DNA from: Rhabdaerophilum calidifontis
GTDB lineage: Bacteria; Pseudomonadota; Alphaproteobacteria; Rhizobiales; Beijerinckiaceae
Length of the DNA stretch: 64,000 bases
NCBI RefSeq assembly: GCF_008641065.1
Contig: NZ_VTRS01000001.1
Coordinates: 434,001-498,000, forward strand
Reading direction: 5' to 3'
Below are positions 28,421 through 52,871 of this stretch, one piece after another (positions within the stretch are counted from its first letter, which is position 1; every line of letters starts with the position of its first letter). Position numbers and translations under genes: made by a program. Under the pieces are notes generated by a model. It had not been told where the DNA came from, made no database searches, and worked only from the letters and a program-made list of their open reading frames with translations.

Positions 28421-28436
28421 TTAAGCCGAGCTTAAC
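28421..28436 (-). promoter_or_regulatory. perfect CtrA box upstream of the outer-membrane protein gene
   Basis: TTAA-N7-TTAA with the flanking C on both strands; the site is itself palindromic (GGTTAAGC-CGA-GCTTAACC on plus). It lies 72-87 bp before the start codon at 28349 and agrees fully with the full CtrA consensus TTAA-N7-TTAAC. Confidence 0.7.
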
Positions 28437-47278: not shown

Positions 47279-47437
47279 TGCGGAGCCGCATGGACCGGTG
47301 GAGTGTCGATCCCGGGAACCTACATGAGTAGGTGGGCGCCGTGTGTCCGGGTCCAGGGACCCGGTCAGGGACAGCTCCCTTAGGATCGATAAGGCCCCGG
47401 GGAATACGTATAACCTGCCGCATCCCGCAGCCCCGCA
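47279..47437 (-). ncRNA. ssrS: 6S RNA
   Basis: About 159 nt between zapA and ymdB. The closing helix pairs TGCGGGGCTGC (5' end, near 47437) with GCGGCTCCGCA (3' end, near 47279) over 11 bp. The interior contains the rhizobial-type segments CCCCGGGGCCTTATCGATCC, GGGAGCTGTCCCTGACCGGG and GGCGCCCACCTAC..GTAGGTTCCCGGGATC. The zapA-6S-ymdB synteny is conserved in alphaproteobacteria. 6S RNA mimics an open promoter and sequesters sigma-70 RNA polymerase in stationary phase. The ends are estimates from pairing. Confidence 0.85.
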
Positions 47438-50932: not shown

Positions 50933-51610
50933 TCAGCCCTCGGAATCGTCGTCGCGCCGCGTCTCCTTGAGGTTCGCGAAGACATGCTCGATATCGAGCT
51001 CGGCCTTCCGGCGTGGCGGCTCGGCGGCGGTCGTCATCTCGGCGGGGATCAGCGTCGCGCCGGTTTCCACAGGCGACGGCGCCGGCCGGTCCTTGGCGGA
51101 GCGGCTCACCTCGAGATCGAGGTCCATCTGCGTGCACAGCCCCAGCGTCACCGGGTCGAGCGGCTGGAGATTGCCCGAATTCCAGTGCGTGCGCTCGCGG
51201 ACCGACTGGATCGTCGATTTGGTCGTGCCGACGAGGCGGATGATCTGGCTGTCTTTCAGCTCGGGATGGTTCTTGAGCAGCCATTGGATGGCGTTCGGTC
51301 GGTCCTGCCGCTTCGAGACCGGGGTGTAACGCGGCCCCTTGGTGCGCTTGAGATCGGGCAGCCGGACCTTCGGCTCCAGCACCTTGAGCCGGTAATCGGG
51401 ATCGGCCTCGCCGCGCTCGATCTCCTCGCGGGAGAGCTGGCCGGCCTGCACGGGATCAAGGCCCTTCATCCCGGCCGCGACGTCGCCATCCGCGATTCCC
51501 TTCACCTCGAGCGGGTGCAGCGCGCAGAAGGCGGCGATCTGGTCGAAGGTCAGCGCGGTGTTCTCGACCAGCCAGACCGCGGTCGCCTTCGGCATGAGGA
51601 GGGTGGCCAT
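50933..51610 (-). CDS. DUF1013 family regulator (TrcR-like)
   Basis: A 225-aa protein with the DUF1013 signature: MATLLMPKATAVWLVENTALTFDQIAAFC, GIADGDVAAGMKGLDPVQAGQLSREEIERGE, and the helix-turn-helix-like NHPELKDSQIIRLVGTTKSTIQSVRERTHWN. The C-terminus is Ala/Pro/Glu-rich. The family is conserved in Alphaproteobacteria and is listed in some databases as a cell-cycle transcriptional regulator, TrcR. The start at 51610 is chosen over an upstream ATG at 51721 that lacks conservation. It is divergent from the DUF1192 gene. Confidence 0.85.
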   Translation of the reverse strand: MATLLMPKATAVWLVENTALTFDQIAAFCALHPLEVKGIADGDVAAGMKGLDPVQAGQLSREEIERGEADPDYRLKVLEPKVRLPDLKRTKGPRYTPVSKRQDRPNAIQWLLKNHPELKDSQIIRLVGTTKSTIQSVRERTHWNSGNLQPLDPVTLGLCTQMDLDLEVSRSAKDRPAPSPVETGATLIPAEMTTAAEPPRRKAELDIEHVFANLKETRRDDDSEG

Positions 51611-51796: not shown

Positions 51797-51985
51797 ATGT
51801 TCGAGGAGGAGAACCGTCCACGCAAAGCCGCCGCGCATGAAATCGGGCAGGATCTCGCGCCGCTCTCCGTTGCCGAGATCGACGCGCGGGTGGAGATGCT
51901 GAAAGCCGAGATCCAGCGCCTCGAGGCGGCGCGGGCGGGCAAGCTCGTCAGCCAGGCGGCGGCCGATGCGCTCTTCCGGTCCTGA
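51797..51985 (+). CDS. DUF1192 family protein
   Basis: A 62-aa protein, MFEEENRPRKAAAHEIGQDL then LSVAEIDARVEMLKAEIQRLEAARAGK, matching DUF1192, a short alphaproteobacterial helical protein of unknown role, usually encoded next to DUF1465 (rcdA) and DUF1013 genes as here. A GGGAG ribosome binding site precedes the ATG. No membrane segment. Confidence 0.82.
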   Translation: MFEEENRPRKAAAHEIGQDLAPLSVAEIDARVEMLKAEIQRLEAARAGKLVSQAAADALFRS

Positions 51986-52063
51986 CGGGTGATCAGCGTG
52001 AAGGATGTGGAAATTCATAGGGTTACAGGAATGTCGCATGCATTTGATGAAAATTCTCCGAAT

Positions 52064-52078
52064 TTAACGCGGCGTTAA
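52064..52078 (+). promoter_or_regulatory. perfect CtrA box upstream of the rcdA leader
   Basis: TTAA-CGCGGCG-TTAA, an exact core match to TTAA-N7-TTAA, 245 bp before the rcdA start. In Caulobacter rcdA belongs to the CtrA regulon. On the plus strand it could drive rcdA or the short terminator-bounded transcript that follows. Confidence 0.65.
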
Positions 52079-52079
52079 G

Positions 52080-52195
52080 CGCTTCCGGTTAATCCTGAAA
52101 CCGTTCCGGCTCGCCGGATCCCGAGTGGCTCCTGCCGCTCTGTTTGACGCCTCCCTGTTGGACTTCATCAGGACCGCTTCGGCGGTCCTTTTTTT
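52080..52195 (+). ncRNA. candidate small RNA or attenuated leader of rcdA
   Basis: A stretch of about 115 nt lies between a CtrA box and an intrinsic terminator. It has a stem-loop at 52105-52118, a single-stranded segment with CCTCCC (52150-52155) that resembles the anti-Shine-Dalgarno loops of rhizobial trans-acting small RNAs, and a terminator at 52171-52195. It may be an independent small RNA, a premature-termination product of rcdA, or the 3' end of the DUF1192 transcript. The 5' end is a guess. Confidence 0.4.
52171..52195 (+). terminator. intrinsic terminator inside the rcdA upstream region
   Basis: GGACCGC-TTCG-GCGGTCC, a perfect 7-bp stem with a UUCG tetraloop closed by C-G, followed by seven T residues. 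It ends 127 bp before the rcdA start. Confidence 0.92.
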
Positions 52196-52322
52196 GTCGC
52201 GCGCGTTAACCATTCCGGCACGGCCCTCGTTTCGACATCGAGGCTTGGTGTTAGTCTTGCAGAAACCCTCCGCATCGGCAGCGCCCGCCCCGGCGTGGCA
52301 CAAGGAGACCGGAGATCCGACG

Positions 52323-52871
52323 ATGCAGGACAAGACCCGCGAGCCCATGACAGGCATCGGCCCCCTTTCCCCATCCGAACACGAGGGTGCCGTCTCCTTC
52401 ACGGAGAAGATGCTCGCCTCCGATGCGTTCATGACGCTGTTCCGCGAGGGGATGGCGCTGGTCGAGGCGACGGCCGCCTATCTCGACGGCGAGGGGCGGC
52501 AGCAATCGAAGATTCTCGACCGCACCATCGCGCTCGCCTATGCCAGCGAGAGCATGCGGCTCACCACGCGGCTGATGCAGCTCACGTCGTGGCTGCTGCT
52601 CCAGCGTGCGGTCAATGAGGGCGAACTCACCCGCAACGATGCCGAGCGCGAGCATCGGCGGGTGGTGATCGCCATGCCGGAATCGCGCACGGCGCCGGAG
52701 ATCTTCCAGCAATTGCCGGCCCGGCTCCTGGAACTGATCGATCATTCCCAGCGCCTGCAGGAGCGCATCCAGCGCATTGATGCCGATCTCAAGGGCCAGC
52801 GCATGGCCGAGCCGCTCAACCCGGTCGCCGGGCAGATCGGCGCATTGGCGGCGGCGTTCGGCCGCGGCTGA
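52323..52871 (+). CDS. rcdA: DUF1465 family, RcdA-like regulator of CtrA degradation
   Basis: A 182-aa protein. The family core is DAFMTLFREGMALVEATAAYLDGEGRQQSK followed by YASESMRLTTRLMQLTSWLLLQRAVNEGELT, a helical bundle of the DUF1465 group. That group includes Caulobacter RcdA, an adaptor that delivers CtrA to the ClpXP protease with CpdR and PopA. ATG 52323 has GGAG eight bases upstream; the frame reaching 52125 crosses an intrinsic terminator. It is closed by a bidirectional terminator shared with rpmE. The family call rests on remembered motifs; the role in CtrA turnover is inferred. Confidence 0.82.
   Translation: MQDKTREPMTGIGPLSPSEHEGAVSFTEKMLASDAFMTLFREGMALVEATAAYLDGEGRQQSKILDRTIALAYASESMRLTTRLMQLTSWLLLQRAVNEGELTRNDAEREHRRVVIAMPESRTAPEIFQQLPARLLELIDHSQRLQERIQRIDADLKGQRMAEPLNPVAGQIGALAAAFGRG

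Follow-up and report, generated by a model that had tools for sequence, protein, structure and literature searches.

The small RNA upstream of rcdA in Rhabdaerophilum calidifontis belongs to the BjrC1505 family and very probably has a CtrA-controlled promoter

BjrC1505 (Rfam family RF02356) is an already catalogued Alphaproteobacterial small RNA (sRNA) of unknown role. The BjrC RNAs are said to have been validated in their founding paper, Madhugiri 2012. In the open-access literature, we found no function or regulator for BjrC1505, whose name occurs in one paper's table within the text accessible there, and no paper connecting it with CtrA; the accessible portions of the start-site paper on B. 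japonicum name BjrC68 and BjrC174 and do not name CtrA (PMC4842269). In Caulobacter, CtrA control of rcdA is known, and the available text of Zhou 2015 counts six non-coding RNAs among the CtrA targets, so that a CtrA-controlled non-coding RNA is a known kind; activating full CtrA sites lie near –35 there, with –39 named for ctrA P2 (PMC4287350). The published CtrA full site is TTAA-N7-TTAA (PMC4287350, PMC12403871). Conserved CtrA control of rcdA was predicted by Brilli 2010 for a group that includes Rhizobiales (PMC2877005). According to the accessible parts of the later studies, a CtrA motif lies 5’ of the mapped rcdA start in S. meliloti (Schlueter 2013; PMC3616915), CtrA binds the rcdA promoter region by ChIP-seq in the same species with rcdA unchanged on CtrA depletion (Pini 2015; PMC4433202), and in agrobacteria several starts precede rcdA, the CtrA sites lying farther upstream than in Caulobacter (PMC10469942). 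An RNA between the DUF1192 gene and rcdA is not mentioned in these parts of the S. meliloti and agrobacterial papers.

We analyzed 64,000 nucleotides of contig NZ_VTRS01000001.1 of R. calidifontis (hereafter the window), in which rcdA (DUF1465; 52323–52871, plus strand), encoding an adaptor for ClpXP proteolysis of CtrA, is preceded by a DUF1192 gene (51797–51985, plus strand), the common neighbor 5’ of the RNA, and beyond it by trcR on the minus strand (50933–51610; PF06242), encoding the transcriptional cell cycle regulator TrcR. The initial annotation had called the downstream gene RcdA-like, and its profile match bears this out (NF051867, 197.2 bits; cut-off, 170). RF02356 matches positions 52057–52195 over the whole model (1–140) with 71.3 bits at a gathering cut-off of 50, and the hairpins, the CCUCCC segment and the terminator of the family are all present here; by this full-length match, the RNA before rcdA is BjrC1505. 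The undescribed CtrA-controlled sRNA envisaged by the initial annotation is thus an sRNA, very probably under CtrA control as judged from the conserved box, but not an undescribed one.

The RNA is predicted to span about 93 nt on the plus strand (52103–52195), from G52103 to the end of its terminator. Folding and covariation place hairpin 1 at its 5’ end (52105–52118) and hairpin 2 at 52123–52140, with CUCCU within and next to the loop of the latter as a second anti-Shine-Dalgarno-like segment. These are followed by the strongly conserved TTTGACGCCTCCCTGTT (52143–52159), which contains the anti-Shine-Dalgarno CCTCCC at 52150–52155, and by the intrinsic terminator (52170–52195), whose stem at 52170–52189 has 8 pairs and a 4-base loop and runs into TTTTTT. 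The stem-loop, the CCTCCC segment and the terminator before rcdA had all been noted in the initial annotation and are recovered here. The segment 52101–52195 folds with an energy of –40.3 kcal/mol (z –3.82), which none of 200 shuffles equals. In the predicted fold of the R. calidifontis RNA, CCUCCC occupies the loop of a third, weak hairpin, whereas the family consensus leaves it unpaired. The terminator alone is weak evidence, because the 3.5 kb around the locus hold 4 terminator-like sites as against 2.4 in shuffles, and it is conservation that carries the case. Typically, members of the family are arranged as the box TTAAC-N6-TTAA, some 23 bases, a hairpin AUCCAG-CUGGAU and a hairpin GAGUGG-CCACUC whose loop contains CUCCU, after which comes UUUGACGCCUCCCUGUU, a strongly conserved segment, and then the terminator.

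Upstream of the RNA, direct reading confirms the perfect TTAA-N7-TTAA box reported earlier, a predicted CtrA site on the plus strand (52064–52078) with half-sites TTAA at 52064–52067 and 52075–52078 and 7 bases between them. Perfect boxes number seven in the whole 3.09-Mb genome and the reversed pattern twelve; the box at 52064–52078 is more than a chance occurrence in that its 5’ base stands 39 bases 5’ of the predicted first base of a conserved RNA. A –10-like stretch, TAATCCT, may be read at 52090–52096 (plus strand), the family profile being T-A-W-W-A-C-T with every position conserved only in part. Between the terminator and rcdA lies the half-site TTAACCAT (52206–52213, plus strand), a possible CtrA site of rcdA itself. 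The genome encodes CtrA (NF045991, 421.5 bits) and Hfq. Elsewhere in the window, a second perfect TTAA-N7-TTAA at 28421–28435 stands 5’ of an outer-membrane beta-barrel gene (PF13505; 27534–28349, minus strand), plausibly a further predicted CtrA target, and a 6S RNA is encoded at 47279–47436 on the minus strand (RF00013, 86.7 bits).

RF02356 matches 49 of 61 genomes at E 0.001 or better, 44 of them over the cut-off, and none of 14 control genomes including Caulobacter; 51 matching stretches were aligned. As the box forms part of the Rfam model, a promoter-blind covariance model of the transcript only (R1; 40 sequences, 92 positions) was built. In its three helices, 95.6% of cells are paired and 16 of 20 pairs have changed on both sides, and on each of five measures of covariation none of 500 shuffles scored as high; sliding the helix partners by 1–3 columns lowers pairing to 40–53%. 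The covariance search across the order, proposed with the initial annotation, was carried out with R1 and found the RNA in 254 of 297 genomes, which represent 110 of the 123 genera. A scan of named organisms showed the box–RNA–rcdA unit in Mesorhizobium, Microvirga, Pleomorphomonas, Bauldia and others, with rcdA downstream at all 21 loci and a box of 7–8 letters in 19 of the 20 that could be evaluated (L188 has 6 letters; L182 is truncated at the sequence edge). The Methylobacterium bullatum copy is barely over the Rfam cut-off (50.5 bits), those of S. meliloti, Sinorhizobium K101 and Shinella are below it, and no copy was found in Sphingomonas.

The box is conserved together with the RNA. For its evaluation, we used 77 order loci found with R1, namely the 30 best, 44 that represent mostly one per genus among the matches listed, and 3 from the own genus and family, a selection in which strong matches are over-represented; 9 of these genomes had served to build R1, and one locus (L125) with too little upstream sequence was left out of the box counts. 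Upstream of the R1 match, a box in which no more than one of the 8 letters deviates stands in 72 of 76 loci, perfect in 33, as compared with 12.0% and 0.95%, respectively, in dinucleotide shuffles, and in 63 of 67 loci once the genomes used to build R1 are removed. All 72 boxes are positioned 22–31 bases 5’ of the R1 match, and the four degenerate ones, with 6 of 8 letters, 23–27 bases 5’ of it. The 51 Rfam loci carry a box of 7–8 letters in 48 cases, these loci having been found with a model that contains the box. Counting 39 bases on from the first T of the box, one reaches a purine in each of the 36 loci that share the commonest spacing; these loci have an AT-rich –10-like stretch at –12 to –6, as a weak element. 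When the distance is fixed at 39 across all spacings, just 45 of 72 loci have a purine there, and the start therefore appears to move by a few bases as the spacing changes. With the start predicted from sequence alone, the 5’ base of the box would lie at –39, within the range of –35 to –39 that is activating in Caulobacter.

The RNA might be real and the TTAA-N7-TTAA motif nevertheless be read by another regulator, or be just an AT-rich –35 element, as the four degenerate boxes among 76 would allow, CtrA binding here being a prediction. We regard this as very unlikely: both half-sites with a 7-base spacer occur far above other spacers (4–6 and 8–10 bases; 9–25 of the same loci, 0–2 perfect), the motif agrees with the CtrA full site as published, and ctrA is present in the genome. 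The BjrC1505 promoter is thus very probably under CtrA control, and this CtrA promoter, strongly supported by its conservation across the order, appears to represent a new regulatory connection for the family. As the box is kept at the RNA's own promoter, the sRNA of most bacteria of the order is probably cell-cycle controlled. The same observations bear on the Rfam model, since the position of the box, the predicted start and the lack of a consensus fold in the promoter segment lead us to read its 5’ third as promoter. Across 36 aligned loci, this segment has no consensus RNA fold (energy 0.0), and the Rfam fold of the first ~43 model positions pairs 33–46% of cells at four offsets, the register being approximate. 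The first third of the RF02356 model (~45 bases, with box and –10) is thus probably promoter DNA rather than transcript, and if this is true, the model should be trimmed.

The position of the unit next to rcdA could be explained in other ways. In one, proposed in the initial annotation, rcdA would be expressed from the CtrA promoter through an attenuated leader, the terminator acting as a regulated stop with conditional read-through. In favor of this, 75 of the 77 R1 order loci have rcdA following the RNA in the same orientation within the flank retrieved (Rfam loci, 43 of 51; class loci, 12 of 43), and Caulobacter rcdA is known to be CtrA-controlled (PMC4287350, available text). However, 8 of the 51 Rfam loci have no detectable rcdA within 1.5 kb, and all 8, found with the Rfam model that includes the box, keep the box (7–8 letters), the RNA and the terminator. 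Genome G060 has two copies, one with and one without rcdA, and G053 two copies that both lack it; among the promoter-blind class matches, a box stands 22–31 bases upstream in 9 of 31 loci without rcdA and 8 of 12 with it. In addition, CCUCCC pairs with the 5’ region of rcdA no more strongly than shuffled sequence does (mean z –0.23; below –1 at 12 of 72 loci). Between the RNA and the rcdA alignment lie 112 to 1123 bases, depending on the locus (75 loci), and this stretch has its own CtrA-like sites: 6 of 72 loci contain TTAACCAT, where 0.08 would be expected, and 9 of 72 a full site of 7–8 letters, as against 3.6% in shuffles. From these sites, rcdA often seems to own a separate CtrA site. With the unit kept where rcdA is not detectable and no excess pairing, attenuation and cis-pairing with rcdA find no support; since the rcdA-less copies keep box and terminator, an independent sRNA is favored, and the leader is unlikely.

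Alternatively, the box could be the CtrA site of rcdA, with the hairpins and the terminator merely ending the DUF1192 transcript. The DUF1192 gene lies upstream of the RNA in 64 of 77 order loci, and published predictions do assign CtrA control to rcdA (PMC2877005, accessible text); the terminator may also end the DUF1192 transcript, as the initial annotation had suggested, but this leaves the conserved RNA unexplained. A mere terminator needs neither a strongly conserved 17-base CU-rich segment nor covarying 5’ hairpins, and the distance of the box is nearly fixed relative to hairpin 1, not relative to rcdA, which makes this the reading that we find hardest to credit. Our preferred explanation, which we consider likely, is an independent, trans-acting and CtrA-driven BjrC1505 sRNA of about 93 nt that would pair with Shine-Dalgarno sequences and end before rcdA. 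Not every box before rcdA belongs to the RNA, since at L051 (genome G023) a perfect box precedes rcdA with no R1 match.

The S. meliloti locus illustrates the arrangement. In S. meliloti Ak57 (a 3.7-Mb record labelled pSymB), the RNA lies between DUF1192 and rcdA (R1, 42.7 bits) and is preceded by the perfect box TTAACCGCAAATTAA. A second perfect box is found between the sRNA terminator and rcdA in this strain (L308:2339–2353), and likewise at L052. With two perfect boxes, the published ChIP signal is ambiguous and may belong to the second one. The published S. meliloti and agrobacterial data would fit a CtrA-bound start, distal to rcdA, from which the RNA is made, and reading this promoter as that of the sRNA offers an explanation for CtrA being bound before S. 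meliloti rcdA with no effect on rcdA.

Among the 43 genomes of the order that lack an R1 match, rcdA is present in 10 of the 20 listed. We read by eye 18 rcdA upstream regions from genomes picked as having no Rfam or R1 match, three of which (G017, G057 and G059) are in fact matched by R1; two regions (L053, L301) end at a contig edge and one (L307) is masked. R1 run on 16 of these loci matched six (L054, L056, L059, L302, L303, L304) and gave no match at L051, L057, L058, L060, L299, L300, L305 and L306. Diverged copies with the box TTTACTCCAACTTAA and R1 scores of 26–28 bits are thereby seen before rcdA at L302:2136–2215 (minus strand), L303:1250–1330 (plus strand) and L304:2136–2215 (minus strand), in three genomes of one family that were absent from the order-search matches. 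In the class-wide search, R1 matches 55 of 240 genomes, with many weak matches that are other RNAs having CCTCCCTGTT in common. Nine class-level RNAs (L107, L108, L118–L120, L173, L174, L178, L180) carry a hairpin resembling CGTCTCCCAGACG together with GAAGCCTCCCTGT and a terminator, and no CtrA box in place; these apparently form a separate sRNA family that has the module CCTCCCTGT-ACTT-terminator in common.

The anti-Shine-Dalgarno segments suggest, on sequence grounds, translational repression of mRNAs. In 17 genomes of the genus, exact copies of the 14-base complement occur, among the matches listed, only at the sRNA gene; allowing up to 2 mismatches gives 264 matches, as compared with 135 when the complement is reversed as a control, and the matches listed include one 1-mismatch site outside the sRNA genes (G007). 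The ribosome site CAGGGAGG precedes ATG 292 times in the 17 genomes (reversed control, 16) and 16 times in the R. calidifontis genome (controls, 0 and 1), an excess of little weight, given that ribosome sites of this type are in any case concentrated ahead of start codons. We read all 16 sites of the R. calidifontis genome, together with 6 stretches of relatives: four of the 16 open only 1–34 codons, two precede ORFs of 128 and 94 codons, and ten precede named genes. Three of these encode solute-binding proteins (Peripla_BP_6, SBP_bac_1/8 and DctP), and the others thiolase, aminotransferase, short-chain dehydrogenase, SoxZ, DinB, RpoB and ribosomal protein L6, the RpoB site presumably lying inside the gene, judged by the N-terminus. 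The AbcR RNAs of rhizobia are known for solute-binding protein targets. As a lead only, solute-binding protein mRNAs are candidate targets of the RNA. By eye, no strong match to the RNA was seen at the ctrA ribosome site.

Taken together, we infer that phosphorylated CtrA on the full box at –39 would recruit RNA polymerase to the RNA's own promoter, that the RNA would accumulate late in the cell cycle, in predivisional cells, and that its transcript would stop ahead of rcdA, at the 52170–52195 terminator. CUCCU and CCUCCC, both exposed, would then pair with mRNA Shine-Dalgarno regions, probably with Hfq, and block translation. More tentatively, and with less confidence than doubt, CtrA may across the order drive an ancient sRNA beside the gene of its own degradation factor; the predicted “CtrA site of rcdA” would in part be the promoter of the RNA, and uptake and metabolic mRNAs with GGGAGG ribosome sites would be silenced in the CtrA-high phase, leaving uptake cell-cycle gated. 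Hyphomonas lies outside the order. CtrA is reported not to regulate rcdA there (PMC7200025, accessible text); CtrA or rcdA is wired differently in Caulobacter and Hyphomonas, which counts against our preferred explanation. A catalogued sRNA of unknown role gains a probable regulator and a predicted start site and cell-cycle phase; nitrogen-fixing symbionts and methylotrophs are among the members of the order, and an RNA output of CtrA becomes testable in easy laboratory strains.

Before their terminators, SorY (RF02651) has CCUCCCUGUUGGACUU and mmgR (RF00519) has CCUCCCU and ACUU in common with the R. calidifontis RNA; as family assignments, mmgR/suhB (RF00519; 23.7 bits, cut-off 41), SorY (22.4 bits, cut-off 111) and SorX (RF02784; 21.2 bits, cut-off 46.6) all fall below their thresholds. 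AbcR1/2 of rhizobia resemble BjrC1505 in having three stem-loops and two CU-rich anti-Shine-Dalgarno segments, but lie at the locus SMc01226–lsrB, and the accessible text mentions no link to CtrA (PMC7143759). Identity with EcpR1 or CcnA was rejected by locus alone, as given in the available parts of the papers, the RNA described here lying between DUF1192 and rcdA. EcpR1 of Sinorhizobium is a widely conserved Rhizobiales sRNA tied to the cell cycle, as BjrC1505 probably is, whereas it is encoded beside pleD–divK and rpmG, acts through a GC-rich stem-loop and is stress-induced (PMC4414408, PMC12403871). CcnA of Caulobacter differs in its length of 182 nt, its location at the replication origin and its action on the ctrA and gcrA mRNAs, while it is likewise a non-coding RNA whose promoter carries a CtrA box and which has a place in the cell-cycle network (PMC8959179, available text).
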